This document shows positions 3,435 through 53,520 of a stretch of DNA of 64,000 nt, piece after piece (within the stretch, counting starts at the first letter, position 1; each line of letters begins with the position of its first letter). The translations under genes were made by a program, and so were the position numbers. The notes beneath the pieces were generated by a model. The model searched no databases and was not told the DNA's origin. It saw nothing but the letters and a program-made list of their open reading frames with translations. Origin of the DNA: Clostridiales bacterium (GTDB lineage: Bacteria > Bacillota > Clostridia > Oscillospirales > CAG-272); contig JAAZAV010000023.1 of assembly GCA_012514145.1 (NCBI GenBank), forward strand, positions 1-64,000. The letters run 5' to 3'.

Positions 3435-4325
3435 CTATCTTACCCGCCCCTGTTCGTCGTGGAAGAATATCCCGTAGCCAGAGCCGGCGGGCTTGCCCGA
3501 GAGCAGCCATTTCTTATAGGCGCGGCGAAGCCCGGTATCCTCGGGCCACTGCTCGAGAGGCAGTTTTGAGGCAGGACCGAACACGCGCCAGGCATTGCCG
3601 AATGTCTCGGAGGTGGAGGAGCTTATCATATCGAAGTCGTCGATGAAGCCGACGATATTTGATGTTTGGGGCAGCATCTCCTTGTGAGCGGGGTAGAGCA
3701 GCCAGGAGGAGCAGGAGATCGGAACCACGCCGTTCCAATTCAAACGTTCGCGGTTGAACTCATACGCGCGGCGGTAGGAGTCATGGCGCAGTTCGCGGGT
3801 CAGAGGGCCGGAGGAGGGAATGTGTATGCGCAGCGCCGGCTCGCCCTTGCGGATAACATGACCGCCCCGTTCGTATATCTCGCCGTCAAAGGCGGAGTAG
3901 TCGTACTGCAGCCGTCCGTGGGCGAAGCGGGTCAGATGATAGAAGGGCGCGTGCCAGGCGGCCGCCGAGGTGCCCCAGATACCGTCATTGGCGCGGCATT
4001 CCTCCAGCTTGCAGCGGTAGTCTACCGTCATGAACCAGAAAAGCTCCTCGTCTATATTGTTGGCGCGGTATTTGTCGAGCAGCAGTTCCGAGGCATTGAG
4101 GTAAAACGCCAGATAAAGCGAATACTTATAAACCCCGAATTCGGGCGACATGGAGTCGAGAACGGCGATAAGTTCCGAAGAATCCGAGTAATCGTGGTCG
4201 ATAAGACGCCGGCTCAGCGTCTCGTAACGGCTGTCGGCGGCAAGGCGGCGGCAGAGGTCGGTGAGAAATCCCCTCGATTCCTCAGGGAAATTCGCTTTTT
4301 CCATCAGCAGTTCGACGTGTGACAT
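3435..4325 (-). CDS. Acyltransferase-like protein (NAT_N / GNAT_C type)
   Basis: A 296-residue cytoplasmic protein without signal peptide or membrane segments. It resembles Firmicutes proteins annotated as acyltransferase domain-containing, with an N-terminal helical NAT_N-like domain (about 1-130) and a C-terminal GNAT_C-like domain. The region LEECR-NDGIWGTSAAAWHAPFY and the following RFAHGRLQYD are what I recognise. The substrate is unknown. The start is taken at the ATG at 4325 because GGGGAGG lies 7 bases upstream; a TTG 24 bases earlier has no ribosome site. The stop is TAG. It stands alone between two rightward units. The family call comes from memory of the pattern, so it is moderate. 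Confidence 0.6.
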   Translation of the reverse strand: MSHVELLMEKANFPEESRGFLTDLCRRLAADSRYETLSRRLIDHDYSDSSELIAVLDSMSPEFGVYKYSLYLAFYLNASELLLDKYRANNIDEELFWFMTVDYRCKLEECRANDGIWGTSAAAWHAPFYHLTRFAHGRLQYDYSAFDGEIYERGGHVIRKGEPALRIHIPSSGPLTRELRHDSYRRAYEFNRERLNWNGVVPISCSSWLLYPAHKEMLPQTSNIVGFIDDFDMISSSTSETFGNAWRVFGPASKLPLEQWPEDTGLRRAYKKWLLSGKPAGSGYGIFFHDEQGRVR

Positions 4326-4788
4326 ATATTTCCTCCCCGGTTGGGTCAAATTTCATTTGATACCGCCATATTTGCGGAGCGCTCATTTGTAAATAACTTT
4401 GATATTATTCGCAGAATAACGCAAAGGACAGCGTAATTCCGACAAGGCAGCTGCAGCAGTCGCAGGCAGTCTTTACCGTACCGATCTTGAAGCCGTAACG
4501 GCGGGATACCTTATTACATCTGTTTCTCACCGTGCGCCGGCATTATACCACAGACGACTGATTTTTTCAAGTGGAACAATTAATATGCCACCCGCCCGCC
4601 GATGCGGATTTCGTTCTCGCCCGACCCGAAAGAAGGAAAGGACCTTTTTTGAAATCAGCCATTTTTATATCTATTGTCCATGCCTGCCTTTCATGTTGTT
4701 TTGCCGTTATAACATCATGACCGTTGCCCGAATGCAACAGCATCTGCGGATTTTTGCCGTCTCCACATGTTGCGGCACGACACACGCC
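4326..4788. other. Intergenic region between divergent genes
   Basis: About 460 bases separate the leftward acyltransferase-like gene from the promoter of the rightward transporter. I see no convincing ORF, RNA gene, repeat or strong hairpin, and no clear leftward promoter for the gene at 4325. Confidence 0.5.
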
Positions 4789-4817
4789 TTGACATCGAAC
4801 GCGTGATTGGCTATAAT
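4789..4817 (+). promoter_or_regulatory. Consensus sigma-A promoter of the DMT transporter
   Basis: A perfect TTGACA (4789-4794), a 17-nt spacer and a perfect TATAAT (4812-4817) lie 44 bases before the start codon. Confidence 0.85.
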
Positions 4818-4861
4818 ACACGAACACAAGCCTGTATAATGAAAATCGGACATATATATAA

Positions 4862-5821
4862 ATGAATATAAAACTGAAAAAAGCCCTCCCCGCGCTCTCG
4901 CTGATAAGCGCCCTGTTCTGGGGTCTCTCCTATCCGCTGGTGAAGATGAATCAGACGGCGTTCGGCGCTTCGGACATCCCCTCGCTGATGCTCATAGCCG
5001 GCATCCGCTTTATAATCTCCGGCGGCATAATCGCGGTATGGAACCTTTTCCGGCACCGTAAAAATCCCGCAATACCCGCATACCCCGGAAGGGGCAGCAT
5101 ATGGCATGTGCTCATCCTCGCCCTCACCATGACGGCGGTGCACTATCTCTTTATGTATATGGGGCTGGGCATCTGCACCGGTTCGAAAAGCTCGATAATA
5201 AAGCAGACCAGCGTGCTGATAGTCATATTCCTGTCGGGGCTGTTCTTCCCGGAGGACAAACTGAACCTGCCTAAGGTTGCGGGATGTCTGTTGGGCTTCG
5301 CCGGGGTAGTGGTCTGCAGTATGCCGCTGTCCGACTTCGATTTCGTGCCTGCCGGAGATATACCCATCTTTCTCGCGGCCGTCTCGGTAGCCGCGGGCGA
5401 CCTTTATTCCAAGCGCGCCACCCGCAGTATAGACCCCATATTCCTCTCGGGCTGGCAGCAGCTCGCAGGCGGAATTATTCTCACCGCCGCCGGACTGATT
5501 GCCGGGGCGGCAGGGGGCAAATTGCCGAAACTCACCGTAACACCCTACGCGGTGGGAGTGCTGCTGGCGGTATGCGGCGCTTCGATTGTCGCCTACACCC
5601 TCTACATGGTGCTGACAAAGTACTGCGATCTGTCAAAGCTCTCTATGTTCAAGCTCACCATCCCGGTTTTCTCGGTGCTCACCTCCGGACTTCTGCTGGG
5701 TGAGGATATGACAAAGCCCCAGTACTGGGCGTCTATCCTGCTGGTTTCAGCCGGCGTGGTCATTGCCAACCTGAGCATACGCCCCCCCGGCAGCCACTCC
5801 CGAGCCGGCTTCGGCGGATAA
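4862..5821 (+). CDS. DMT-superfamily transporter (EamA family)
   Basis: A 319-residue polytopic membrane protein with about ten hydrophobic segments arranged as two EamA repeats. The first repeat begins with SALFWGLSYPLVK, the EamA N-terminal signature, and the second begins near residue 160. Such proteins export amino acids or other small metabolites; this substrate cannot be inferred. The ribosome binding site is weak: the bases before the ATG are AT-rich, with no clear AGGAGG, although the promoter upstream is a consensus match. The gene is monocistronic and followed by a terminator. The last 15 residues are hydrophilic and probably cytoplasmic. Confidence 0.85.
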   Translation: MNIKLKKALPALSLISALFWGLSYPLVKMNQTAFGASDIPSLMLIAGIRFIISGGIIAVWNLFRHRKNPAIPAYPGRGSIWHVLILALTMTAVHYLFMYMGLGICTGSKSSIIKQTSVLIVIFLSGLFFPEDKLNLPKVAGCLLGFAGVVVCSMPLSDFDFVPAGDIPIFLAAVSVAAGDLYSKRATRSIDPIFLSGWQQLAGGIILTAAGLIAGAAGGKLPKLTVTPYAVGVLLAVCGASIVAYTLYMVLTKYCDLSKLSMFKLTIPVFSVLTSGLLLGEDMTKPQYWASILLVSAGVVIANLSIRPPGSHSRAGFGG

Positions 5822-5836
5822 AGGATGATAAAATGA

Positions 5837-5877
5837 TAAGCCTCTCCGACGCGGATAATTTCCGCCGGGGAGGCTTA
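5837..5877. terminator. Bidirectional terminator between convergent genes
   Basis: Stem arms starting TAAGCCTC and ending GAGGCTTA, with G-U pairs and a small bulge, lie between the ends of the rightward transporter and the leftward oxidoreductase. Confidence 0.65.
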
Positions 5878-5905
5878 ATATATGTGTTTGTGTTGCCGGT
5901 TAGGA

Positions 5906-7213
5906 TTACACCGGATACGCACCTGCAGCCGACAGCCGTTCGCGCAGTTCGCCGCATAGCGAGGCGGAGGAACCGATGTCCGCGGCGGAGCAGCCTTTAT
6001 CCAGAGCCAGCGCAGCGGCAATGCCTGCAGCCTGACCCGTGAGATAACAGCAGGGAATGACCCGCGCCGAAGCCTGCATGGCACGGTCGGAGCCTATACA
6101 GCGTCCGGCGGTCAGCAGATTATCGAAGCCGACAGGCAGAAGGCAGCCGTAGGGAATACCGTAGGACTCGCCGTCGCCGTGACGGATGTTCACTGATTTG
6201 GCGAAGCCGCGCATTCCCTCCTCATCGGCGGTCATGGGATGGATATCAACAGGGTAGGAATAGCGTCCGATTTCGTCCGGCCAGACATAGCCGTCGGAGA
6301 AATGGTCGGCGGTCAGCGTTTTGACACAGCGCACCCGCCAGGACTCGCGGATACCCAAGAAGTCGGCAGTGCGCAGCAGTACCACAGATTCGCAGCCCTC
6401 CACATAGTCCCGATAGTATCGCTCATATTCGGCGAGACTGCGGCGGCCGAGGAGCAGCGCATCGGTGATGCTTTCACTGGTGCGGTCGTCGGCGGCAAAG
6501 ACATGCCCCACATTGCCGCCGCCCACCCCCGCATCGGGATAGTTGGGCTTGATCCCCGGGAGCATGGTGTCAAACTCGGAGAGTACACCGTCGCTGTAAG
6601 CTTGCCTCAGGTAAGCCCCGTCGGCGCGTTTACGATCGAAGTCCACGCCGCCCCAGAGACTGCATAACGTGGCGGGCATGGTGATTCCGCCCTCATCTCC
6701 CCAGTCGCACCCGGCACCCGCAAGCCGGCATAGGGCAGCCGAACCGGTGCAGTCGATATACACCTTTGCGGATACGGCAAAAAGCCCCTCCTGACCCGAG
6801 AAAATCGCGCCGGTAATATGTCCGCCTGACATTATTACATCGGTGAGCCGGGTGCATAGCAGCAGTTTTACCCCGGCTTCGGTCACCGTATTGTCGTACC
6901 AGCGCTTGAGCGGTTCGGGCTTTGTCACCTGCCAGACGCGGCGGTAGGCGCATTCTCCGAAAAGCGAGTCGTGCAGCTCGCGCCCGAAGCCGCCGGAGAG
7001 GAAATGAACGCCGTCGTCGAAGTTCATTATCTCGGGCACCATGGCAAGCACGCTTGCGCCGCCAAGTGAGCCGGTCTGCTCGGTTAATATGACCGACGCC
7101 CCCTGACGGGCACACATGACCGCCGCGGCGATACCCGCGGGACCTCCTCCGGTAACCAACACGCCGCACTCGTATTTTACCGGAATCTCCCGGGAATAAG
7201 CAATAGTTTTCAT
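5906..7213 (-). CDS. FAD-dependent oxidoreductase
   Basis: A 435-residue flavoprotein with an N-terminal Rossmann motif GGGPAG at residues 22-27, preceded by a hydrophobic strand and followed by the acidic end of strand 2 (ILTE). The C-terminal part has the second FAD-contact block NLLTAGRCIGSD and the helix GQAAGIAAALA. This matches the FAD_oxidored (PF12831) type, found in bacterial polysaccharide-utilisation regions and believed to oxidise sugar-like substrates, although few have been characterised. It lies 42 bases behind the SBP gene at 7256-8725 and is probably its second cistron. The ribosome site (AAGAAATAAG) is poor, which suggests coupling to the upstream gene. Confidence 0.82.
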   Translation of the reverse strand: MKTIAYSREIPVKYECGVLVTGGGPAGIAAAVMCARQGASVILTEQTGSLGGASVLAMVPEIMNFDDGVHFLSGGFGRELHDSLFGECAYRRVWQVTKPEPLKRWYDNTVTEAGVKLLLCTRLTDVIMSGGHITGAIFSGQEGLFAVSAKVYIDCTGSAALCRLAGAGCDWGDEGGITMPATLCSLWGGVDFDRKRADGAYLRQAYSDGVLSEFDTMLPGIKPNYPDAGVGGGNVGHVFAADDRTSESITDALLLGRRSLAEYERYYRDYVEGCESVVLLRTADFLGIRESWRVRCVKTLTADHFSDGYVWPDEIGRYSYPVDIHPMTADEEGMRGFAKSVNIRHGDGESYGIPYGCLLPVGFDNLLTAGRCIGSDRAMQASARVIPCCYLTGQAAGIAAALALDKGCSAADIGSSASLCGELRERLSAAGAYPV

Positions 7214-7255
7214 ATTCTTATTTCTTATGCCTCAGATACAATACAGTTTTGCGGC

Positions 7256-8725
7256 TCAGTCAAGCGACAGCCACCCCTCAACGATTTTATCAAAATTGGC
7301 GCTCAGCGATTTCTGCTGTGCCTCAAAGCCCGAGACTACCGGTTTTTTGTTCTGTATACACTGCGCCATGAACTGGGTTATCATAGGATATTCGAAACTG
7401 ACGCTCGAAAGGATAATGTCAAGCATGTCTTTTGTGTCGGCATCCCGGGAATACTTCTCCTTCAGTGCGATCTCGAAATATACGGGCGACAGATCTTTGT
7501 AGCCTGAGATCGAGAGCGTCTCCAGTACCGCGCCGGCAAGGTCAAGGTTTGCGGTGGGTGCGATGCCAAGAACCGTTACATTCTCGAGTATGAATGTGAT
7601 GTAGTTCTCCTGATGGTTGTCGTTCTTTGGCATTGGCAGTACACCGAAATCAAAGTCGCAGTCGCGCAGCTTTTGAGCGGTGGAGAGCACCTGGGGCATG
7701 AAGAGAGTGTTGCCCGCCGACCATATGCGCACCAGATTCTCGGTTGCAACAAGGGCGTTGTTGGCGGTGTCGTTGTAATGATATGTGGCGTCCAGATCGT
7801 TCATGAATCCTTCGACCTTGTTGTATACCTCTAAGTCCCGCTCGCTCAGCGCCTCTTTGAAGCGCAGTACGCCGTCAGCGCCACGTTCGATGTATCGCTG
7901 ACCCATGCCGAAGAGCTGGGCGTTTATCATGTTGTTGTAGGTCAGATAGCCCAGCCGGTCGCCCTCGCTTACATCGCCGCTGCCGTCAAGATCCGAGTAG
8001 GAGTCCTTGACAAGCGCATTTAGCTTATCGAAGGTCCAGGCACCCTTTCTGACATCCTCATATGGCATATCATGCCCCAGGTCTGTAAGCAGATCGCGGT
8101 TAAAGAACATGACGCACATGTTTTCAAGCAGGTTTATTGATGCCGATCCGGCAACCAGATATATGTGCCCGTCGATTGTCAGATTGTCGATATAGCCCTG
8201 CGAATACCAGGGTGAATCGATTGTAATATACTTGTTGCCGATAAGGTTCGAGAAGTAGCCCTCAGCTGACAGTGCAAGGAGATAGTTTGCCGCCGCAGCC
8301 ACCAGCCCGTAGGCGTTGTCGTTGGCGAGTACGCTGCCGGTATAGGTTGACATAAAAGCGGCTTTTGTCGAAAACGAGCCCGACTGAGCAACGTATTCAA
8401 GGTCGGCGTTCAGCAGTTCCTCCGTCTTCAGATTGCGGGCGTAGACGGCATCGTTGACTACTTCGCCGTTTTCGCTTTCGGCGATGAATTCATAATCGAA
8501 CTCTGAGCGCACCAGCATTGTTATCTGCTCACCGCCGAAATCTAATTCCCTAAGTGCCGCATAACTGTCGGCGGTGGTGACCACGGTTGTCTCACACGGA
8601 GCGGCGTCATCAGCGCCGCCAGAATCTGCGGCAATATTGCCGCCGTCCCCCGAACAGCTATGCAGGGCAAATCCCGCAGTTAGAACCATACTCAATGCCA
8701 GTATCAGCGATATAAGACGTTTCAT
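7256..8725 (-). CDS. Extracellular solute-binding lipoprotein, paralog 3
   Basis: A 489-residue member of the SBP family. The signal peptide ends ALHSC with Cys at about residue 24, then a Gly/Asp/Ala-rich linker. It has an LDFGG strand, NDAVYARN, a DLDGSG loop near residue 245 and FGVLPMPKNDNHQ, a variant of the usual DEAQ block. The ribosome site GGAGGG is good. It is first in a leftward unit with the FAD-dependent oxidoreductase and is divergent from the glycosidase-like gene at 8903. The two promoters are about 25 bases apart, so one regulator could control both. Confidence 0.88.
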   Translation of the reverse strand: MKRLISLILALSMVLTAGFALHSCSGDGGNIAADSGGADDAAPCETTVVTTADSYAALRELDFGGEQITMLVRSEFDYEFIAESENGEVVNDAVYARNLKTEELLNADLEYVAQSGSFSTKAAFMSTYTGSVLANDNAYGLVAAAANYLLALSAEGYFSNLIGNKYITIDSPWYSQGYIDNLTIDGHIYLVAGSASINLLENMCVMFFNRDLLTDLGHDMPYEDVRKGAWTFDKLNALVKDSYSDLDGSGDVSEGDRLGYLTYNNMINAQLFGMGQRYIERGADGVLRFKEALSERDLEVYNKVEGFMNDLDATYHYNDTANNALVATENLVRIWSAGNTLFMPQVLSTAQKLRDCDFDFGVLPMPKNDNHQENYITFILENVTVLGIAPTANLDLAGAVLETLSISGYKDLSPVYFEIALKEKYSRDADTKDMLDIILSSVSFEYPMITQFMAQCIQNKKPVVSGFEAQQKSLSANFDKIVEGWLSLD

Positions 8726-11160: not shown

Positions 11161-11185
11161 GCAATTCTGTCCGGGAGGAATGACA

Positions 11186-13597
11186 ATGTTAAAAATACTG
11201 CTGCCATCGGGCGGCGAAATCGCCTATAAACGCGCCGGAGAAGCCTTCCGCGATATGTGGCAGGCGGTCACCGGAAGCCTTACCGAGCTGCTCTGCGAGA
11301 GCGAATATTCGGGAGAGGGAGACGACCTGGTACTCATCGGCAGCGACGCGGTGAACGACCGCACCGCCTCGCTTTTTGCCCGGGATATCATTGAAAGCCT
11401 GGGCATACGCTACGGCACAGACGACTACGCCATCCGTTCCGCCCGGTGCGGCGACGTCACCTGTCTCGTGTTGGCGGGCGGACGGGGACGCAGTACCCTC
11501 TACGCCGTTTACGACTATTTCGAGCGGGCGGCGGGCTGCCGCTACTTCTGGGACGGCGATGTAATACCGCATCACGATACATTGCCCCTTGCCGGGTTTG
11601 ATGTGTGCGAGAAGCCTCGGTTCGAATACCGCGGACTGCGCTACTTCGCCCACCGCGGACTGCACCGTTTCCAGGCGGAACACTGGTCGCTTGCCGACTG
11701 GAAGAGGGAAATCGACTGGATGGTGAAGCGCCGCCTCAACTACTTCATGCTGCGCATCGGTATGGACGACGTGTTCCAGCGCGCCTTCCCCGATGTCGTG
11801 GACTACCCGTCCGCCTCGAAGAAACTGCCCGAGGCAACCGCCGGGTACGACGACCGCTCCCTCTTCTGGCCGCTTGAATACCGGAGCACGCTGCGCAAAA
11901 AGCTGCTTGAATACGCCAGAGAGCGGGATATAATGCACTCCGAGGACTGCGGCACCATGACCCACTGGTACTGCCGCACGCCGATACAGTTCCTCGAGAA
12001 AAAGAAGCCCGTCCTGCTCTCACAGACCAGCGGCGGCTACTCCGAGCAGACCGGACTTGTATGGGATCCGCGGATAAAAGAAAATCTTGACAATTATCTG
12101 AAAATAACTGATGTCTACGCCAATTATTACGGCACTCCTCAGCTTTTTCATACCATCGGACTTGCCGAGCGGAACATCTCCGCCGACCGCCGGGAGAATC
12201 TGAAGATAAAACTCTTTACCTACCGCCGCATACTGCAGAATATCCGCGAGAAATACCCCCAGAGCAAGATGCTAATCGCCGCCTGGGACTTCATCGGTTG
12301 GTGGCGCAAGGAGGAAATTCAGCAGCTGATAAACGAGCTTGACCCGCAGCGCACCATCATTCTCGACTACATGTGCGAGCACGACGACCCGGAGCAGGCG
12401 TTTTTGAGCTGGGGCGTGGTGGGTAAATTCCCCTGGATTATAGGCATGTTCCACGCATACGAGTCGGAGAGCGACATACGCGGCCCCTACGACCGCACGA
12501 AGGAGCGGCTGAAGATCGCAGACGCCGACCCCATGTGCAAGGGTATGGTTATGTGGCCGGAGCTGAGCCACAGCGACACGCTGGCGCTGGAGTACCTGGC
12601 GCGCAACAGCTGGCGACCGGAGGAGGATACCCTGACCATTGAGACGCTTGCCGGGAACTTTGTGACCTCCCGATACCCCGCAGAAGACGTTCCGCTGATG
12701 AACGATATATGGCAGACCTATCTGCCCATGGTGAAGTTAGTGGAGTGGGGACACTACAGCCGCCGCACTCCCGACGACCCGGATTACGTCAAATACTGTC
12801 ACAACTGGTGGGACAATCGGGTATTCCTCTACGACATGCTGGGCGTGGGCTGCATACAGAAGCTGAGGGACAGCGACATGCTGCGCTGGGATTACCTGCT
12901 TGGCAGAGTGAGAGAAGAAGGCTGTGCCGAACGGGGCGCGGCGATACTCGCAAAGTTAGCCGGACGGGCGAAGGGCTGCGGTGCCGACGGATGTAATCAG
13001 TTCCTGCGCCGCGATATGTATGATATCGCCATCTCGATTATCGGCCGGCTGTCTCACTGGGGGATCATGCGTCTCTGCCTGCTGCGCAGCCGCTTTGAAA
13101 AGAGTGAAACCAGTCTCGGCGGAGAGATGATAAGCCTTGTTGCGGCGCTTAGAGAGCTGGCGGAGCTGCTCTGCGGCATTGTATGCGGGCACGAGGATTA
13201 CTCCATGTACGCCACGCTTAAGGGCATGGACGAGGTGTCTCCGGTCAGCGCCCGGTTTGAGGAGACGCTGAAGCAGAACCTTGTCAACGGCTACTGCCGC
13301 CAGGCCTGTTCCGAAGCTTACCGCTATCTCTTCCTCGACGAGCAGAGGGTTTACTTCGACTGGGTAGAGGAGAATGTCCGCGCCGGCATGCAGGTATTGG
13401 CCGGAAGTGAGCCTCAGCCCTGGACTGCCGATTTCGGCGCGAAGAAGCGCGAGCTGTTCGAGGACTTCATGGCGCGTCCCCTTGCAGAAATGGCGTGCGC
13501 TGTCAGGACATGCGGCGAAACGGCATCTGACAAATCCTGCGATTACGCCGACTGCTGCGAAAAGGCTGCGGCGCTTGTCAGCCGTCTCGGTCTTTAA
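11186..13597 (+). CDS. Alpha-N-acetylglucosaminidase, GH89 (NAGLU-like)
   Basis: An 803-residue enzyme predicted to release terminal alpha-linked GlcNAc, a residue of gastric-type mucin O-glycans and heparan. The N-terminal NAGLU domain carries AGGRGRSTLYAVYDYFER near residue 95. The TIM barrel starts at about residue 140 with RFEYRGLRYF and WKREIDWMVKRRLNYF, the pattern of human NAGLU. By alignment from memory the two catalytic glutamates are about E328 (GLAERN) and E459 (MWPELSHS, equivalent to the human APEGISQN region). A helical C-terminal domain follows. No signal peptide is present, so it should act in the cytoplasm, unlike many secreted bacterial GH89 enzymes. The ATG at 11186 has GGAGG 8 bases upstream; an ATG at 11180 is too close to it. 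Confidence 0.85.
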   Translation: MLKILLPSGGEIAYKRAGEAFRDMWQAVTGSLTELLCESEYSGEGDDLVLIGSDAVNDRTASLFARDIIESLGIRYGTDDYAIRSARCGDVTCLVLAGGRGRSTLYAVYDYFERAAGCRYFWDGDVIPHHDTLPLAGFDVCEKPRFEYRGLRYFAHRGLHRFQAEHWSLADWKREIDWMVKRRLNYFMLRIGMDDVFQRAFPDVVDYPSASKKLPEATAGYDDRSLFWPLEYRSTLRKKLLEYARERDIMHSEDCGTMTHWYCRTPIQFLEKKKPVLLSQTSGGYSEQTGLVWDPRIKENLDNYLKITDVYANYYGTPQLFHTIGLAERNISADRRENLKIKLFTYRRILQNIREKYPQSKMLIAAWDFIGWWRKEEIQQLINELDPQRTIILDYMCEHDDPEQAFLSWGVVGKFPWIIGMFHAYESESDIRGPYDRTKERLKIADADPMCKGMVMWPELSHSDTLALEYLARNSWRPEEDTLTIETLAGNFVTSRYPAEDVPLMNDIWQTYLPMVKLVEWGHYSRRTPDDPDYVKYCHNWWDNRVFLYDMLGVGCIQKLRDSDMLRWDYLLGRVREEGCAERGAAILAKLAGRAKGCGADGCNQFLRRDMYDIAISIIGRLSHWGIMRLCLLRSRFEKSETSLGGEMISLVAALRELAELLCGIVCGHEDYSMYATLKGMDEVSPVSARFEETLKQNLVNGYCRQACSEAYRYLFLDEQRVYFDWVEENVRAGMQVLAGSEPQPWTADFGAKKRELFEDFMARPLAEMACAVRTCGETASDKSCDYADCCEKAAALVSRLGL

Positions 13598-13675: not shown

Positions 13676-14887
13676 CTATTTTCCCGTGCCCACGCCGTCG
13701 GCGGTACCGCAGAAGGTTAACTCGTATTTACCTTCCAGCGCCGGGAATTCCCTGAGATAAGCCCTTTTGAGAGAGTCGGCAATGCTCTCGGTATACGCCG
13801 GGTCGGCTATGGCTATACAGCTTCCCTTGAAGCCCGCCCCCGAGAAGCGGCCGCCGTATATGCCCTCGGTGTTTGCCATCAGCTCGCAAAGGTATCTAAG
13901 CTCCGGCGAGCCGGTCTCCCAGCTAACCATGGAGGAACGGGCGCTTTGATTCATGAGCATTCCGAAGGCGGCAAGGTCTCCCCTGCGCCATGCCTCAACA
14001 CCCGCCTCGACCCGCTCCGACTCGCTGTAATAGTGCTCGGCTCTCCGCCGCCAGCTGCCGGGGAGTTTTTCGCCGTAATGTTCGAATATCTCGCGGGGTA
14101 CGTTCCGCAGAAACGCCTCGTCAAACTTTCCGTATTCCACACCCGCCCAGGCCTGCAGGGCGTATGCCGCCGACTTCGCCTCATCCACCCGCATGTTATA
14201 ACGGGAGCCGACAAGCGAACGCTCCACGCCCGAGAAGATCACCGCCAGGGTGTAATCGGGCATATCGACGGGCGGGGCGATGTTCTCGTAACTGTCGTCC
14301 AGCATATCCATATATAGCAGGTGTTCGGCGCGGCAGAAGACCTCGCAGGACTGATCCAGCTTGCCGCAGGCGACGCCCACATAGCTGTTCTCCGCCTCCC
14401 GGGCTATGGTGATAAGCTCCCGGTCGCCGAGAGCTATGCCGCCGGTTACGCCTGTCGGAGACTCCCTGCCCTGGGCGGCACAGAGGGCGTTGAGGAAGGA
14501 TATAATCACCGCCGCCGAGCTTGAAAGCCCGCCGATGGGCAGTTCGCCGTCGATAAGCACGTCTATGCCGGTGTGAAGCTCATACCGCTTCCCCAGTGAA
14601 AGAACAGCGCCGCGCAGATGGTCAGCCCAGTCGCCAACGCGGATGGACGGGATATCATTAAGGGAAAACTCCGCCTGGGTGTCGAACTGGCGGGAGACGA
14701 TGGCAAATCCGCCGTCCTCCCGTCTGCGCCAGGTGCAGTATATGCCTTTGTCTATGGCAAAGCCGGTGATTTTTCCCTGCTGATGATCGATATGGGCGCC
14801 TAAGGGACATACCCGGTAGGGTGTGAAGGTCTCGCCGTCGGGCGCGGCGCCCCGAAAGGCGGTTTCAAAAAGTTCGCGGTTTTTCAT
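13676..14887 (-). CDS. GHMP sugar kinase, galacturonokinase-like
   Basis: A 403-residue GHMP-family kinase. Motif 1 (residues 23-38) is PYRVCPLGAHIDHQ rather than the galactokinase form with GEHTDYN. CPLGAHIDHQ is the form I remember from plant galacturonokinase. Motif 2, the ATP loop GGLSSSAA, is at 119-126; the catalytic Asp is in GKLDQS (D178); motif 3 is FSGAGFKGSC. The stretch RRAEHYYSESERVEAGVEAW also mirrors the plant enzyme. A likely reaction is ATP-dependent 1-phosphorylation of D-galacturonate or a related hexose. AGGAG precedes the ATG, and the stop is TAG. It is a single leftward gene, divergent from the GH130-like operon. Galactokinase is the main alternative. Confidence 0.78.
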   Translation of the reverse strand: MKNRELFETAFRGAAPDGETFTPYRVCPLGAHIDHQQGKITGFAIDKGIYCTWRRREDGGFAIVSRQFDTQAEFSLNDIPSIRVGDWADHLRGAVLSLGKRYELHTGIDVLIDGELPIGGLSSSAAVIISFLNALCAAQGRESPTGVTGGIALGDRELITIAREAENSYVGVACGKLDQSCEVFCRAEHLLYMDMLDDSYENIAPPVDMPDYTLAVIFSGVERSLVGSRYNMRVDEAKSAAYALQAWAGVEYGKFDEAFLRNVPREIFEHYGEKLPGSWRRRAEHYYSESERVEAGVEAWRRGDLAAFGMLMNQSARSSMVSWETGSPELRYLCELMANTEGIYGGRFSGAGFKGSCIAIADPAYTESIADSLKRAYLREFPALEGKYELTFCGTADGVGTGK

Positions 14888-15045: not shown

Positions 15046-16200
15046 ATGTCCGGGCAAAAGACAAATACGGGCAGCGGCATATTCGACTGGCAGTTCGAGC
15101 GCCCAGACAGGCGTTACGGCTACAACGCCGATACACAGTGGGGCGGCTTCTCGAGAGACGCCGAACTGCGTTCCCGCCCGGCTCCGGAATGGGCGCTTTT
15201 GCCCTTTGAGAAATACGGAGGGAATCCCGTGTTTGCCCCCGACAAGGAGAGCTGGGACTGCGGGCGCTATGGCGGCGGCGTGCACAACGGCGCGCTGGTC
15301 AAGCGCGGCGGCGAGATATATTACATATACCGGGGTGAGTTCCGCACTCCGGACGACGACAGACTGGCGGCTCAGCGCGCCACCGGCATAAACTATCACT
15401 GCGACATCGGCACGGCGGTGCTGCGGCGAAAGACCATTGCCGACGGCGAAAAAATGTATTTCGAGCGGGTCGCCGGCCCCTTCTTCCGTCACGGAGAGGA
15501 CTTTATATACAGCTTCGAGGACGTCTGCTGTGTGGACGCCGGTGAATCTGTGTCACATCCCCGCTACTGCATCTACCTCAACCGCTGGGATTGGGCGCGT
15601 ATGAACGACCCGTCGGTGAGCGGCATCATCTGCTGTACCTCGGACGACCTGATACACTGGGAGAATCACGGTCTGCTCTTCCCGGACGCCGGGAGAATCC
15701 ACCGGAACCCCTGTGTGCTGCAGGACGCCGATAACCGACCGGTGAAGGACATGTCGGGACGTTATGTCATGTATATAAACAACGGACTTATCGCCTTCTC
15801 CCATGACCTTATGCACTGGGAATCGGAGGAGACCGGATACGACTGGCCGGGCGGAGAGGGCTGCTTCGCCCTGAGCCGCGGCGAGGATATCATACTGTTC
15901 ACAGGCGGCAATCACTCGGGGCATTTCTACGCGGTGGGCGAGGTGCTCTTCTCCCGTGAGAACCCGAAAAAGCCGCTGGATTATCTGCAGAACCCGGCGC
16001 TCACCGCAGACCCCGCTATACCCTGGGAAGACGGACGGCTTGCCGACCCGCCTCACGATTACTGCTCGGAGTTTTCCGACACCATATTCTTCACCGGCAT
16101 TACAAGGTCAGGCGACCGGCTTTATGTCAGCTACGGGGGCAGCGAATACTACACCTGCCTCGCCACAATAAAATATAACGAAAAGGAGACAGAAAAATGA
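15046..16200 (+). CDS. GH130-like five-bladed propeller glycosidase or phosphorylase
   Basis: A 384-residue cytoplasmic protein with the repeated Asp-rich blades of five-bladed beta-propeller enzymes. Blade motifs visible include GGGVHNGALVKRGGEIYYIYRG, SDDLIHWE, SHDLMHWES and the C-terminal block FTGITRSGDRLYVSYGGSE--TCLATI. That last block is typical of GH130 (mannoside phosphorylases and hydrolases, DUF377-like). Whether this one is a phosphorylase or a hydrolase, and on which linkage, cannot be told from sequence alone. Its stop codon overlaps the ATG of the next SBP gene (ATGA), so the two are translationally coupled. It heads an operon with an SBP and a Gfo/Idh oxidoreductase, consistent with import and breakdown of one glycan. 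GH43 or GH32 are alternatives. Confidence 0.72.
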   Translation: MSGQKTNTGSGIFDWQFERPDRRYGYNADTQWGGFSRDAELRSRPAPEWALLPFEKYGGNPVFAPDKESWDCGRYGGGVHNGALVKRGGEIYYIYRGEFRTPDDDRLAAQRATGINYHCDIGTAVLRRKTIADGEKMYFERVAGPFFRHGEDFIYSFEDVCCVDAGESVSHPRYCIYLNRWDWARMNDPSVSGIICCTSDDLIHWENHGLLFPDAGRIHRNPCVLQDADNRPVKDMSGRYVMYINNGLIAFSHDLMHWESEETGYDWPGGEGCFALSRGEDIILFTGGNHSGHFYAVGEVLFSRENPKKPLDYLQNPALTADPAIPWEDGRLADPPHDYCSEFSDTIFFTGITRSGDRLYVSYGGSEYYTCLATIKYNEKETEK

Positions 16201-17699
16201 AATACGGAAAAATTATTGCCGCATTCCTTGCGGCGGCGCTGCTGCTCTCGTTTGTCCTGACAGCCTGTTCGGGCGGAGGCGGGGAGAACGCCGAAGTTAC
16301 CGCTGCCGCTGCTGATGCGACAGAGACGAATACCGAACCCGCCGAGACCGAGCCCGAACTTGCCGTTCCCGACCTGCCGGACAACGACTTCGGCGGCAAG
16401 GTGTTCAGCGTACTGACCTGGTCCCGGGCTGACACAAAGGTGCAGGACGACTTCATAGCCGAGGAACTGGACGGCGAGCCGCTGAACGACGCGGTTTATC
16501 AGCGCAACTCCACAATTAAGGAGCGGTATAATTTCGAGATAGCCTGTATCGAGGAGACCCGCGCCAACTTCCAGAACACCGCGACCAAAGGCATACTCTC
16601 GGGCGACGACCTGTATGCGGTGATCAACGGCGGCGTCAGTACCGCCTGTACGGTGCTGGCGAGGAGCGGCTATATATTCGACCTCAACTCTCTGAACTAC
16701 ATCGACCTGGAAAATCGCTGGTGGGATCAGCGCTGCAACAGCGACCTTTCGGTCGGCGGCAGGCGGTATATCGGCATGGGCGACATCTGCACCATGGACA
16801 ACAGCCAGACCTGGGCGTTCATCTTCAACCGCAAGCTGGCGGAGGATTTCTCTCTGGGCGATATGTATAAATTGGTATATGACGGCGGCTGGACGCTTGA
16901 CGCAATGTACGGCATGATGCAGAAGTCGGCTGCCGACCTGAACGGCGACGGCGTATTTGACCAGCTCGACCGCTGGGGGCTGATGACCGAGAACTATAAT
17001 TACTACATGCAGTTCTTGGGCGCGGGCGAGCTGGTGGCGAAGAAGGACAAGGACGACATGCCCTATCTCACCTTGAACAGCCCCCGCGTGTCGAGTGTGC
17101 TTGAAAAGGTGTATGACATATACCACGGCTCGGCGGGCAGCGCCTTCATCGCCGAGAACTGGATGTTCTTAGCCTCCTCCTCTGTCTGGACCGAATATAT
17201 CATCCCCATGTTCGCCGACGACCGCGCCCTGTTCTACTTCACGGGAATCGGCAACACCTTCAAGCACCTGCGCGACATGGAGAGCGAGTTCGGCATCATT
17301 CCCACCCCGAAATACGATGAGGCTCAGGAGGAATACTACAACGGCATCTCGGCGAGCTGGGCTACCTGCGTGGTCATTCCCGTCACCTGTCAGGCGCCGG
17401 ATGACAGCGCCTTCTTCCTTGAGGCGCTTTGCTGTGAGAGCCTGAACACGGTCACTCCCGCATACTTTGATATAATCTTCGAGGGCAAAGCCGTGCGCGA
17501 CACCGAATCTATCGCAATGGTTGATCTTATACTCAGCACCCGTATCTTCGACATAGGCTACCTTAACAACTGGGGCGGCGTGACGAGTCTCTTCACCGAG
17601 ACGGTCAAAGCCTCATCCTTCGACTTCGCCTCGCGCTACGCATCACTGGAAAGCAAAATACAGGCGGCGCTTGAGGAAGAATACGGTGCACAGTCGTAA
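16197..17699 (+). CDS. Extracellular solute-binding lipoprotein, paralog 4
   Basis: A 500-residue SBP lipoprotein. The signal peptide ends LTAC with Cys at about residue 24; the linker is rich in Ala, Thr and Glu. Family blocks are an NDFGG strand, NDAVYQRN, WWDQ with SVGGRRY, a perfect DLNGDG loop near residue 247, FGIIPTPKYDEAQ and NNWGG. It is second in an operon, overlapping the GH130-like gene by four bases and 41 bases before the Gfo/Idh gene. Because of the tight coupling to a glycosidase, this copy gives the best hint that the family binds oligosaccharides. Confidence 0.9.
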   Translation: MKYGKIIAAFLAAALLLSFVLTACSGGGGENAEVTAAAADATETNTEPAETEPELAVPDLPDNDFGGKVFSVLTWSRADTKVQDDFIAEELDGEPLNDAVYQRNSTIKERYNFEIACIEETRANFQNTATKGILSGDDLYAVINGGVSTACTVLARSGYIFDLNSLNYIDLENRWWDQRCNSDLSVGGRRYIGMGDICTMDNSQTWAFIFNRKLAEDFSLGDMYKLVYDGGWTLDAMYGMMQKSAADLNGDGVFDQLDRWGLMTENYNYYMQFLGAGELVAKKDKDDMPYLTLNSPRVSSVLEKVYDIYHGSAGSAFIAENWMFLASSSVWTEYIIPMFADDRALFYFTGIGNTFKHLRDMESEFGIIPTPKYDEAQEEYYNGISASWATCVVIPVTCQAPDDSAFFLEALCCESLNTVTPAYFDIIFEGKAVRDTESIAMVDLILSTRIFDIGYLNNWGGVTSLFTETVKASSFDFASRYASLESKIQAALEEEYGAQS

Positions 17700-36487: not shown

Positions 36488-37978
36488 TTACTGGAGCTCC
36501 TCTATGGTTGTGGCTATGGCGGCGACAATCTTCTCCTCGCTTGCCGCCATTTTCGACATGAAATCGGTGGAATTGCCCGAGATGAAGCCCGACAGGATCC
36601 CGTTCAGCCCGCCCCAGTCGTAGAGAGCCGCGATATCGAAGGTGCGGTTGGCGTAGATTATCTCAAGCATCTCCTCGGTGTCGGTGTCGCGTATGGTTTT
36701 ATTGGTTATGGTTTTGTCGATGAGCGCCGTGTGAATATATTCCTTGCCGTAGTAGCCCAGGGCGTCCATTATATGACCCGTATAGTCGGTGTCGGTAACG
36801 GTTATCGGCACGACCGCGTAGGCTGTCCAGGACTCGGAGGCGGGCACATAATAACTTTCCTGAGACTCGTCGAACTTGGGCGGCGGCAGTATGCCGAAGT
36901 CCGAATCCATTTTGCGCATTTCAAATGCCACCGACATCCAGTTGTTGAGATAGAGCAGTTTGTCGGCAATAAACTGGGGCACTAAGAACTGGCTGAAAAC
37001 ATGGGAATACTTGCTTGAGAAGTCGCCGGTGTAGAGGGTGGTGGCTTTGTCGCGCCACAGGGGCACTATCTTCTCGATGACCGAGGCGGCGCGGGCGGTG
37101 TTGCCGGCGGAGCCCACAAGGCTGTAAACCGGGTAGTCGTCGCTGTCCTTCTCGGTGAGGGTCACGCCGCAGGAGCGCAGCACCACCGAGGTCAGAGCCT
37201 CGCTCGACATGCCGAAGCGGTCTTTGTCGTCCATTACGCCGTCGCCGTTGAGGTCGGCGGCAACCGTCTTTGCGTGTTCCTCCATGACATCAACCGTCCA
37301 GGTGCCGGACCGCACCTCGTCATAGGGATTCGAAAGATTAAAGCTCTCGACCATATTCTTGTTGACATAGGTGGTAAACACCGACAGGGCGTCAAAGGAG
37401 CCTATGTTGCCCGGCGCGAAGAACAGCTTGCCGCCGATGGTAAGCTGGTCGGTGGCGGTCTGATTCCACCAGGATTTGGTGAGGTCGAGGGTTTCTATCG
37501 TGAAAAGGTCAAGGCAAAGCTGACCGCTCACCACCTTGGGGATAGCGCCGCCGTCAAGCAGCACCGTGTCGGCGTAGTGGTCGCCCGCCATGGTGGAGTT
37601 CACCATTTCGCCGCCGGATTTGTATTTTCTCGGCACAATGGTGATCCCGAAGGACTCTTCAACCGCAAGCCGGCGGTCATATATAGCGTCGTTGATAATG
37701 TCGCCGTTCTGCTCCTCGGAGGTGATTTCACAGTAGGAGGTGGCTACCCAGTTGGGGCTGTCGGTAGCCCAGGCGCTGAATATGAACTCTCTGCCGTTAT
37801 AGTCAACGTCGGGACGCTTGTATTCAGGCTCGGTAACCGTTTCGGTCACTTCGGCTTCGGCAGCAGTTCCGCCGTCGGGAGCGTCCGACTTTGAGCCGGT
37901 ATCCCCGGCACAGGCGGTAAAGAACATGCATAACACCGCCGCGAGACAGAGGATTTTCAGTACTGTTTTGTTTTTCAT
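36488..37978 (-). CDS. Extracellular solute-binding lipoprotein, paralog 6
   Basis: A 496-residue SBP lipoprotein. The signal ends FTAC with Cys at residue 23. The usual DFGG strand is VDYNG here, followed by NDAIYDRR; a perfect DLNGDG loop starts near residue 242; FGILPPPKFDESQ and YDWGG complete the pattern. It is fourth in a leftward operon (interrupted SBP, P1 peptidase, amidohydrolase, this gene, GH20), with 90 bases separating it from the amidohydrolase. Two SBPs in one operon with GH20 suggest a hexosaminide ligand, by inference. Confidence 0.88.
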   Translation of the reverse strand: MKNKTVLKILCLAAVLCMFFTACAGDTGSKSDAPDGGTAAEAEVTETVTEPEYKRPDVDYNGREFIFSAWATDSPNWVATSYCEITSEEQNGDIINDAIYDRRLAVEESFGITIVPRKYKSGGEMVNSTMAGDHYADTVLLDGGAIPKVVSGQLCLDLFTIETLDLTKSWWNQTATDQLTIGGKLFFAPGNIGSFDALSVFTTYVNKNMVESFNLSNPYDEVRSGTWTVDVMEEHAKTVAADLNGDGVMDDKDRFGMSSEALTSVVLRSCGVTLTEKDSDDYPVYSLVGSAGNTARAASVIEKIVPLWRDKATTLYTGDFSSKYSHVFSQFLVPQFIADKLLYLNNWMSVAFEMRKMDSDFGILPPPKFDESQESYYVPASESWTAYAVVPITVTDTDYTGHIMDALGYYGKEYIHTALIDKTITNKTIRDTDTEEMLEIIYANRTFDIAALYDWGGLNGILSGFISGNSTDFMSKMAASEEKIVAAIATTIEELQ

Positions 37979-39148: not shown

Positions 39149-40246
39149 TTATTCCTTTCGATTCAGGGCAAGATATCCGGGCAGAAATTCGTTCAGGCTG
39201 CAGAGCACCTTGCCGCTGTATCCGACAACCCGATCGGCAGCCGTCATTGAGTTGAGCACAGCCTCCTCCACCGATTCGGCGGCGGCGCGGAAGACGGTCT
39301 CGATGTATCTGTCATCAAGCGCCCCGGTGACGCGGTATTCGTTATGTTCATCACCTTTACCGCTGTTGTCAAGGTTTCGGGGGAAGGTGGTAAAGCCTAA
39401 TACAATGTCGCCGCTGCCGTGCCCCACATAAGAGCCGGTGCGCGCCAGACCTATGACAGCCCGGCGAAACACGCGCCTCAGCTGGATTTCGGAAAGAGGC
39501 AGGTCGCAGCCGATTACTATCATCACCGACCCCCGGTCGACGGCGGCGGGTTTAATATCCTCACTGCGGCGGCGCATCTCGGAGACGATATATTCGCCCA
39601 CCGGCATGCCGGCTATCATCAGATCGGCGGTGACGCCGAAGTTGGTCTGAACCAGAGCGCCGAGAGTATATTTCCCGCCGCCCAATGTGAAAACCCGGGA
39701 CGCCGAGCCTATCCCGCCCTTCAGTCCGTAGCAGAAGGTGCCCTTTCCGGCGCCCACATCCCCCTCGTCGAAGTCCTCGCATGCCGCTTCAACCGCGGCG
39801 AAAACCTCGGCTTCACCGATTATACGGTCGGAGACGTCGCTCATAGAGGCGTCGTTGTTCTCGCCCACCACGGCGTTAACCGATGTGCATTCCACCCCGT
39901 CCTCACTGCAGCGGGCGAGGGTCAGCCCCACCAGCCCGTCGGCGACCTTTCCCACATTGAGAGTGCTCGTCAGCGCGATGGGAGTTTCAAGAGAACCCAA
40001 CTCGTCAAGCTGCACCGTGCCGCAGGTCTTGCCGAAGCCGTTTATGACATGGGCGGCGGCGGTGACCTTATTGGTGAACAGATTGCCCTCGTGGGGGAGG
40101 ATGACGGTGACTCCGGTGCGGTGCCGCTCGTCGCAGAGGGTGTAATGACCCACCTTCACCCCCGGCACATCGGTGATTTTATTTAGCCGCCCTGTCGGCA
40201 GACTGCCGATTTTAATTCCGTAATCGCGTATTTGTTTGCAATTCAC
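39149..40246 (-). CDS. P1-family peptidase (DmpA-type, self-cleaving Ntn hydrolase)
   Basis: A 365-residue protein of the DmpA / L-aminopeptidase D-esterase family. ITDVPGVKVGHYTL near residue 25 is the family opening, and VTVILPHEGN and GGIGSASR follow. DRGSVMIVIGCDLPL is the self-cleavage site, where the Gly-Ser bond is cut to expose the nucleophilic Ser. RRAVIGLARTGS after it is also conserved. Family members release N-terminal amino acids, including D-residues or beta-linked ones. It follows the interrupted SBP by 4 bases and precedes the amidohydrolase by 4. Together with the amidohydrolase it might process an amide-containing ligand such as a peptidyl or amino-sugar conjugate; that is inference. 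Confidence 0.87.
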   Translation of the reverse strand: MNCKQIRDYGIKIGSLPTGRLNKITDVPGVKVGHYTLCDERHRTGVTVILPHEGNLFTNKVTAAAHVINGFGKTCGTVQLDELGSLETPIALTSTLNVGKVADGLVGLTLARCSEDGVECTSVNAVVGENNDASMSDVSDRIIGEAEVFAAVEAACEDFDEGDVGAGKGTFCYGLKGGIGSASRVFTLGGGKYTLGALVQTNFGVTADLMIAGMPVGEYIVSEMRRRSEDIKPAAVDRGSVMIVIGCDLPLSEIQLRRVFRRAVIGLARTGSYVGHGSGDIVLGFTTFPRNLDNSGKGDEHNEYRVTGALDDRYIETVFRAAAESVEEAVLNSMTAADRVVGYSGKVLCSLNEFLPGYLALNRKE

Positions 40247-52026: not shown

Positions 52027-53520
52027 ATGACTTGCAATAAAAGATTTATCAAAATAATCTCTCTGCTGCTTATTCTCCTTGCGGCGGCTGTTCCCGTGCT
52101 GTCCTCCTGCTCGGGAAGAGGCGGCGGAGAGGGCAATTTGCCCGGCGGAGAAACCACCGGGACGGCTGCAGCCGAAACCACCACCGAAAAGCCGCTCTAT
52201 CCCGAGTATGAACTTGACCTTGAGGGCGCCGACTTCAACATGATATATTATGACGCTGTTGAAGCCTGCGGCTGGTCGTCCGAAATCCCCTGCGATATCG
52301 ACGTGGACGAGCAAACCGGCGACATCCTCGCCGACGCGATATATCTGCGCAACAGCAAGATAGGCGAGATGTACAATACCAATATCGTCGGCATTCAATA
52401 CGCCAAGTGGGATCTGCAAGTCTATGTGGCGAAGTCGGTCTTAGCCGGCGATTCTGCGTATGACGCCATGTTCCCCAACTGGCAGATAATGAACGGCGTC
52501 ATCTCCCAGGGGCTGGCGGTAAGGCTTGACGGCCTGTTCGATATGTCGATGCCCTGGTGGGATGAGAAGGCGGAGGAAGCCTTCAAGGTGGCGGGCAAGA
52601 CCTACGCCGCCTGCGGCGATCTCACCTTTATGGACAAACTCTGTGATATAGTCATATTCTTCAACAAGCAGATGGTTGAGGACTACAATATCGGCGACAT
52701 CTACAAGTTAGTCGTGGACGGCAAATGGACATTCGATAAACTGATCGAGCTTTCCGAACTGGTGTCCGCCGACCTGAACAACGACGGCAAATACGACAGG
52801 AACGACCGTTACGGCTTCTCGGCTCAGAACGACGGCTTCTATGAACTTTATAACTCCGCAGGAGAACGATTCTGCGCCATAGGCGACGACGGCATACCCT
52901 ATCTCTCTGCCACAGGCGAGCGGGCGATAAGCGTCATGACCGATATCTACACCTTTATGAACCGGGTGGAGCACTACTTCAACCGCCAGACTCAGGGACT
53001 TACTGTGGGCGAATGCATCGAAATGTTCAGGGCGAATCAGGCGCTCTTCTTCATGCGCCCTCTGCAGACTGTCATGGAGCTGCGCTCAATGGACGCCGAC
53101 TTCGGAATAATCCCCACCCCGAAATACGACGAGGCGCAGGAGAGCTACCATACCTCAATCGGCTACACGGTCGCCATTGCAACCTGCATCCCTTCGGACG
53201 TTAAGAGCATAGACAATTCGGTGGCGGTGCTTGACACCCTTGCGGTCGAGTCATACTACAATGTAAACGAAGTGCTCTACGACATGGTGTTGGGCTCAAA
53301 GGTCACCCGCGACGAGAACTCCACCGAGAACCTTGACATCATCTTCAATAACCACCTGCTTGACCCGGGCGAGATATTCCAGTTCGGCGGCTTCGCAAAC
53401 GGCATGATGGCAAACTGGAAGGGCGCCGCCGACAAGGTGGTCTCAACAATAGCGGGTTATGAGTCCAAGATAAACGCCGATATCGAAAAGTTCCTCGAGA
53501 CCCTTGAATCGCTTGAATAA
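52027..53520 (+). CDS. Extracellular solute-binding lipoprotein, paralog 8
   Basis: A 497-residue SBP lipoprotein. The signal ends LSSC with Cys at about residue 28 and is followed by a Gly/Thr-rich linker. The first block is LDLEGADFNMIYY, then ADAIYLRN, PWWDEKAEEAFKVAGKTY, a DLNNDG loop near residue 249, FGIIPTPKYDEAQ and FQFGG. It heads an operon with an SDR (gap 77) and a Gfo/Idh oxidoreductase. Its ligand may therefore be a polyol, uronate or inositol-type compound, or a glycan yielding one; the sequence alone does not say. Confidence 0.9.
   Translation: MTCNKRFIKIISLLLILLAAAVPVLSSCSGRGGGEGNLPGGETTGTAAAETTTEKPLYPEYELDLEGADFNMIYYDAVEACGWSSEIPCDIDVDEQTGDILADAIYLRNSKIGEMYNTNIVGIQYAKWDLQVYVAKSVLAGDSAYDAMFPNWQIMNGVISQGLAVRLDGLFDMSMPWWDEKAEEAFKVAGKTYAACGDLTFMDKLCDIVIFFNKQMVEDYNIGDIYKLVVDGKWTFDKLIELSELVSADLNNDGKYDRNDRYGFSAQNDGFYELYNSAGERFCAIGDDGIPYLSATGERAISVMTDIYTFMNRVEHYFNRQTQGLTVGECIEMFRANQALFFMRPLQTVMELRSMDADFGIIPTPKYDEAQESYHTSIGYTVAIATCIPSDVKSIDNSVAVLDTLAVESYYNVNEVLYDMVLGSKVTRDENSTENLDIIFNNHLLDPGEIFQFGGFANGMMANWKGAADKVVSTIAGYESKINADIEKFLETLESLE

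Follow-up and report, generated by a model that had tools for sequence, protein, structure and literature searches.

Free galacturonate usually serves bacteria as a carbon source, via the uronate isomerase pathway. A kinase gene in a 64,000-nucleotide stretch of DNA from a Clostridiales bacterium (the whole stretch analyzed, referred to here as the window) raises the question of whether some bacteria also activate this sugar by phosphorylation. A pair of kinase and pyrophosphorylase would recycle free galacturonate, e.g., from pectin, directly and unbroken into surface polysaccharide, as plants do. In the open literature as far as our searches covered it, we found a plant galacturonokinase and an animal glucuronokinase and no bacterial galacturonokinase. 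On balance we favor the reading that the window gene encodes a GHMP kinase of the galacturonokinase (GalAK) group, most likely phosphorylating galacturonate, and that the kinase of its relatives belongs to a UDP-uronate cassette.

The kinase gene lies on the minus strand (Table 1). On the plus strand, frame 1 across the gene contains stops, and the other frames hold shorter overlapping ORFs of at most 140 aa. In Pfam, the product matched the galactokinase signature domain as well as the two GHMP domains. The gene stands by itself, flanked on the opposite strand by a GH89-like gene and by a gene for a putative glycosidase; the putative glycosidase ORF lies 158 bp from the kinase start and gave no match in a Pfam scan. 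A catabolic role together with the adjoining glycoside hydrolases was considered, and the evidence speaks neither for nor against it. Elsewhere in the window, four ORFs of about 490–500 aa each are without Pfam match (7256-8725, 16197-17699, 36488-37978 and 52027-53520). The first two have lipoprotein-like starts; lying next to glycosidase genes, they may encode divergent sugar-binding proteins. An ORF at 39149-40246, adjoining an amidohydrolase gene, matches peptidase family S58 strongly (351.8 bits).

Table 1. Positions of the kinase gene, its motifs and its neighbors in the window
Feature	Position	Strand	Basis
GHMP sugar-1-kinase of galacturonokinase type, ATG start	13676..14887	-	Intact ORF, 403 aa
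Motif 1, CPLGAHIDHQ, residues 27-36	14780..14809	-	Translation and alignment to 1pie
GHMP phosphate-binding loop, PIGGLSSSAA, residues 117-126	14510..14539	-	Invariant in 6-row alignment
LDQ with presumed catalytic Asp D178	14351..14359	-	Aligned with LDQ aspartate of galactokinases
Tyr230, position of AtGalAK Tyr250	14198..14200	-	Alignment; reconstructed plant sequence
Second stretch, RRAEHYYSESERVEAGVEAW, residues 281-300	13988..14047	-	Translation and conserved columns
C-terminal motif, RFSGAGFKGSC, residues 347-357, with A351	13817..13849	-	Translation and alignment
NAGLU/GH89-like glycoside hydrolase, 805 aa, convergent neighbor	11180..13597	+	PF05089, 63.4 bits
Putative glycosidase, 384 aa, divergent neighbor	15046..16200	+	Weak PDB match 4onz, E 0.00052

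A preliminary description of the locus had recognized a GHMP kinase by its motif 1, and the intact minus-strand ORF, the Pfam GHMP domains and the exchange of Glu for Ala bear this out. Aligned to Lactococcus lactis galactokinase (1pie), the window kinase has identical residues at R25, H32, D34, D178 and Y230. A31 occupies the position of the galactokinase motif-1 glutamate, i.e., GEH has become GAHIDHQ with H32 and D34 kept. This glutamate is E42 of the L. lactis enzyme. Alanine at this position would leave room for a substrate carboxylate. Residue counts were made over 36 aligned family rows, with the window included and Lactococcus garvieae left out. The A31 column holds Ala in 35 rows and one gap, the D178 column Asp in all 36, and the A351 column, at the position of Ala368 in Arabidopsis GalAK (AtGalAK), again Ala in 35 rows and one gap. 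The second stretch had also been read as a GalAK signature, which stands in part. Galactokinases read, e.g., KRARHVVTENQRV at this position and the frame [KR]RAxH...E..RV is common to both groups; what distinguishes the family among the sequences compared is W300 together with an aromatic residue following AxH.

Motif 1 did not serve as a diagnostic at the DNA level. The pattern GAHxDHQ occurred in 30 of 398 genomes compared with 3 of 398 for a reversed control (control rows counted by eye). Of the 30 loci fetched, from 32 places, 27 were without kinase match and three, the window's own included, encoded the kinase. The heptapeptide was rejected as a diagnostic motif, and the kinase assignment therefore rests on whole-protein evidence.

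To compare the family with the plant enzyme we used a single AtGalAK sequence (424 aa) that was reconstructed rather than taken from a database. Ala, Tyr and Ala stand at its positions 41, 250 and 368, those of the published mutants; this agreement is a consistency check on the reconstruction and no independent proof. The AtGalAK mutants reported by Yang in 2009 were A41E, Y250F and A368S, and A41E reportedly abolished activity. In BLAST, the reconstructed AtGalAK sequence matched the window protein with 188 bits (34% identity over 404 aligned columns) and the other 35 family rows with 145–295 bits and up to 40% identity, versus 165 bits or less for the 11 matching galactokinases. The sole family row under 165 bits (145 bits) is truncated.

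Phylogeny gave the same grouping. In one tree, 34 bacterial kinases, window included, together with AtGalAK (reconstructed sequence) were separated from 11 galactokinases with support 100/100. The same split was found against six galactokinases in a second tree (100/100, AtGalAK again as reconstructed), from which five divergent galactokinases had also been removed. Both trees were calculated without the truncated L028_G020 and L138_G622 and without three wrong-frame galactokinase ORFs (L009, L013 and L016). The plant branch was long (1.87 and 2.53 in the first and second tree), and in the best trees the reconstructed AtGalAK sequence joined the kinases of genomes G411 and G229 (99/97 and 96/99). 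A nesting of plant GalAK within the bacteria, which would give a direction of transfer, was not upheld, as bacterial monophyly was not rejected in the AU test (p 0.475). The end branch of the window protein was long as well (0.92 and 0.76), and the protein carries an insertion of about ten residues around residue 145; its specificity may therefore have shifted. It departs from only 2 of the 55 columns that are invariant in 33 other members and hence looks functional despite the long branch. The likeness to plant GalAK put forward in the preliminary description is thus upheld by several lines: in phylogeny with GalK and GalAK (reconstructed plant sequence) the kinase falls outside the galactokinases, the motif-1 alanine and two further GalAK positions agree, the galactokinase score stays below cut-off, and the relatives carry uronate nucleotide-sugar genes. 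The window kinase itself combines the motif-1 Ala, a Tyr at the 250 position and the grouping with AtGalAK (as reconstructed).

We then compared 36 kinase loci besides the window, i.e., 32 from the set of the window's order and those of G018, G411, G229 and L. garvieae. A gene counted as a neighbor when it lay no more than 6 kb from the kinase and shared its strand. A UDP-glucuronate-4-epimerase-like gene (EPI) and a UDP-glucose-dehydrogenase-like gene (UGDH) were counted at 60% identity or more to a reference; weaker matches (G003, G555, G524 and others) were left out. All neighbor counts are lower bounds, and several contigs end near the kinase. A nucleotidyltransferase gene (NT) was found beside the kinase at 29 of the 36 loci, and at 24 of these the distance was no more than 100 bp. 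EPI was a neighbor at 23 loci and UGDH at 13, and all three accompanied the kinase at 12. Of the order's 394 genomes, 27 had both kinase and NT, six the kinase only, two NT only and 359 neither (Fisher p about 1e-33, kinship ignored). In two of the 27 co-occurring genomes (G555 and G662) NT was on a different contig from the kinase. The kinase-only genomes are G000, which is that of the window, G015, G622, G633, G704 and G766; PF03721 was above cut-off in three of these six. In the two NT-only genomes, G643 (L159) and G726 (L160), NT adjoins EPI and UGDH without a kinase. NT may hence also serve the de novo route and, for the same reason, could simply make UDP-glucose.

The surroundings of the relatives' kinase point to polysaccharide synthesis. 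In L. garvieae it sits within an annotated exopolysaccharide gene set, in G003 it adjoins a Pfam glycosyltransferase, and at other loci among the 11 inspected we judged ORFs near the kinase by eye to be glycosyltransferase- and flippase-like. The isomerase UxaC was present in seven of the eight kinase-bearing genomes tested, the exception being the window's own. Because the kinase is accompanied by nucleotide-sugar genes, at some loci within polysaccharide gene sets, and because UxaC is found in seven of eight genomes, it looks in the relatives like an enzyme of biosynthetic salvage beside catabolism. The suggestion in the preliminary description of an alternative to the catabolic isomerase pathway hence did not hold up for them.

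From these gene contents we propose the following route. Using the γ-phosphate of ATP, the kinase would phosphorylate free D-galacturonate at its anomeric hydroxyl and yield galacturonate-1-phosphate. In the relatives, NT would convert this with UTP to UDP-GalA, EPI would interconvert UDP-GalA and UDP-GlcA, and UGDH would replenish this pool de novo from UDP-Glc via UDP-GlcA. The gene order in the relatives suggests that this UDP-uronate pool may feed surface polysaccharide. Somewhat more tentatively, bacteria of the window's order and the Lactococcus plasmid lineage may possess full salvage of free galacturonate to UDP-galacturonate by a galacturonokinase and a new small UDP-uronate pyrophosphorylase, leading with EPI and UGDH into surface polysaccharide, and the plant enzyme could derive from the bacterial group.

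The cassette NT has about 245 aa and the Pfam NTP_transferase domain. For three cassette NTs scanned, no NCBIfam family was above cut-off; the glucose-1-phosphate uridylyltransferase AglF was the best match for two and the second for the third, far below cut-off. In L. garvieae (CP066001.1, 13193-13858) NT is unannotated and, with 221 aa, shorter than in the relatives. Distant NT relatives with about 31–33% identity occur in Natrinema pellirubrum, Natronorubrum bangense and Halopiger xanaduensis; in the two annotated stretches around haloarchaeal NT relatives, no kinase is annotated beside them. A further stretch, from Rhizobium, carries no annotation. The L. garvieae UGDH was most similar to UDP-glucose 6-dehydrogenase PRK15057 (583.8 bits, cut-off 757) and passed the general nucleotide-sugar dehydrogenase model TIGR03026. 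For the cassette EPI (L112), the closest structure was 5u4q, named dTDP-glucose 4,6-dehydratase in the PDB (374.7 bits, covering almost the entire length). It also matched 6zl6, the UDP-glucuronate 4-epimerase BcUGAepi, with 131.1 bits. EPI carries the motifs SSSVYG and RPDMA. The former, placed by motif, has Ser where UDP-GlcA decarboxylases have a Glu, a position whose role is described in PMC7984243. Counting along the sequence puts the Arg in RPDMA roughly at BcUGAepi position 185; in UDP-glucuronate 4-epimerase an Arg is assigned to the UDP-GalA carboxylate (PMC7984243, PMC12338863).

Galacturonate is not the only conceivable substrate. The kinase could be a glucuronate-preferring or broad uronate 1-kinase with the same chemistry and pathway, acting on D-glucuronate or on both uronates, which we consider unlikely. 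The Y230 column bears on this: it holds Phe in 27 of the 36 rows, Tyr in eight, the window among them, and Leu in one. The Y250F exchange reportedly let AtGalAK use glucuronate, and relatives with Phe at this position may thus use glucuronate also, or mainly. The cassette EPI would in any case equilibrate UDP-GlcA and UDP-GalA. Moreover, a glucuronokinase fused to a bacterial-type nucleotidyltransferase is described from zebrafish (PMC3938481). Against this reading, the window copy has Tyr like AtGalAK (reconstructed sequence), and known glucuronokinases form a different GHMP subfamily, very diverse from GalAK in sequence (PMC3938481).

A galactokinase paralogue, phosphorylating galactose while NT makes UDP-galactose or UDP-glucose, is improbable in our view, despite an evident overall likeness. 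The best NCBIfam model for the window kinase was galactokinase TIGR00131, with 188.7 bits against a cut-off of 226.65, and galactokinase models were matched at E 0.001 or better by all 15 family members scanned. Automatic annotation thus probably gives galactokinase or nothing for this family. The nearest solved structures by sequence were galactokinases, too (E 7e-32). An AlphaFold2 model built from 15 aligned family members (mean pLDDT 92.4, pTM 0.91) had galactokinases as its best Foldseek and VIA-align matches. It superimposed on 1pie, a complex with galactose, with Z 45.6 and 2.4 Å over 379 residues at 25% identity; Z was 45.6 for 1wuu and 42.6 for the GalNAc kinase 2a2c. The predicted GHMP fold accordingly places the window kinase in the galactokinase branch, and both the catalytic Asp and the phosphate loop are present. 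As modeled, this fold does not separate sugar substrates, therefore residues, tree and context must decide. Here, the motif-1 Ala in 35 of 36 rows with one gap, the sub-cut-off TIGR00131 score, the position outside the galactokinases in both trees, the UDP-uronate genes beside the relatives' kinase and a separate galactokinase-domain gene in the window genome all speak against a plain galactokinase. In vitro, galacturonate may also serve as a substrate for some galactokinases.

We likewise give little credence to a 1-kinase that acts on a different galacto-series sugar of surface polysaccharides, acidic or otherwise unusual, e.g., N-acetyl-galactosaminuronate or a 6-deoxy sugar: an RbsD/FucU-type mutarotase gene lies near the kinase at two of 36 loci (best NCBIfam match L-fucose mutarotase, sub-cut-off), G003 has a TviC-like UDP-HexNAcA 4-epimerase gene (299.8 bits, sub-cut-off), a dehydrogenase with just 26% likeness to the cassette UGDH and an ORF resembling UDP-GlcNAc 2-epimerase (by eye), and G555 shows similar weak matches, but the commonest partners are of the UDP-GlcA 4-epimerase type, the L. 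garvieae dehydrogenase is most like UDP-glucose 6-dehydrogenase and the kinase groups with plant GalAK (reconstructed sequence).

With a profile built from six relatives and a limit of E 1e-75, the GalAK-type kinase was found in 33 of 394 genomes of the window's order (weakest accepted E 2.8e-127). Among 398 genomes sampled across the phylum, nine passed the same limit, of which three, the window genome, G229 and G411, were true. The other six (E 3.9e-76 to about 1e-78) were ordinary galactokinases with GEHTDYN and were not counted. Two of ten genomes of G411's order had the kinase. A single-sequence scan of genome contigs for the kinase returned one galactokinase only. The L. garvieae kinase is encoded on plasmid CP066001.1, where its gene is broken into a pair of annotated ORFs; both pieces (12001-13177, L023) are annotated as 'hypothetical protein'. 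Among IMG/VR records, one contig carries the kinase, and NT matched ten loci, with the best match (55%) on this kinase-bearing contig. There (L150), kinase and NT lie at 3819-7460 with a transposase-like ORF between them (by eye). A reverse-transcriptase-like ORF at 892-1749 of the same contig, also judged by eye, may belong to a diversity-generating element. Phage records searched with NT gave no match at 1e-20. The patchy distribution of the kinase suggests horizontal transfer.

The window genome (G000; 2.82 Mb, 69 contigs) departs from the cassette pattern. In this assembly, which is 85% complete, we detected neither the cassette NT at E 1e-50 (best 22% identity) nor EPI at 1e-20, nor a PF03721 match for a UDP-sugar dehydrogenase, nor the uronate isomerase UxaC, each absence being uncertain because about 15% of the genome is missing. 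UxuA is present, with two partial matches on one contig. The partner pyrophosphorylase that the preliminary description proposed to look for was thus not found there, at least none of the relatives' kind in the 85% of the genome at hand. The window kinase is hence an orphan form of the cassette kinase, located outside such a cassette. In this genome, without detected UxaC, replacement of the isomerase pathway is possible. The separate galactokinase-domain gene of this genome lies on contig C49 (15061-15207, L001), belongs to a very divergent branch with the motif GNHTDH and stands, in the tree, well apart from galactokinase of the E. coli type.

One closely related known system is plant GalAK (At3g10700, EC 2.7.1.44), with which the family shares the GAH motif 1 and, in the window kinase, the Tyr and Ala at the Y250 and A368 positions. 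The plant route runs from GalAK to the pyrophosphorylase SLOPPY (PMC8636097), and this kinase-then-pyrophosphorylase logic is the one we propose for the relatives. In contrast to the bacterial kinases, AtGalAK (reconstructed sequence) has a short insert after the sugar-binding motif. Its partner is a UDP-sugar pyrophosphorylase, whereas that of the relatives' kinase is a small bacterial-type nucleotidyltransferase, and the relatives' genes form an operon-like cassette, unlike plant GalAK. With the galactokinases GalK (1pie, 1wuu and 2cz9) the window kinase shares the fold and the aligned Arg25, His32, Asp34, Asp178 and Tyr230, but it differs in Ala31 for the motif-1 Glu and lies on a separate side of the tree. 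The cassette EPI resembles UDP-glucuronate 4-epimerase (6zl6, 5u4q) by sequence. Zebrafish DrGKUP realizes the same two-step idea of a uronate 1-kinase and a bacterial-type nucleotidyltransferase, the latter of about 260 aa, for which its authors found only trace pyrophosphorylase activity (PMC3938481). The stand-alone prokaryotic homologues named in that paper, from Ruminococcus, Clostridium, Butyrivibrio, Dorea and haloarchaea, include haloarchaeal species in which the cassette NT also has relatives (PMC3938481). Unlike the bacterial kinase, however, the kinase domain of DrGKUP belongs to the glucuronokinase subfamily and is fused with its partner in one protein (PMC3938481).
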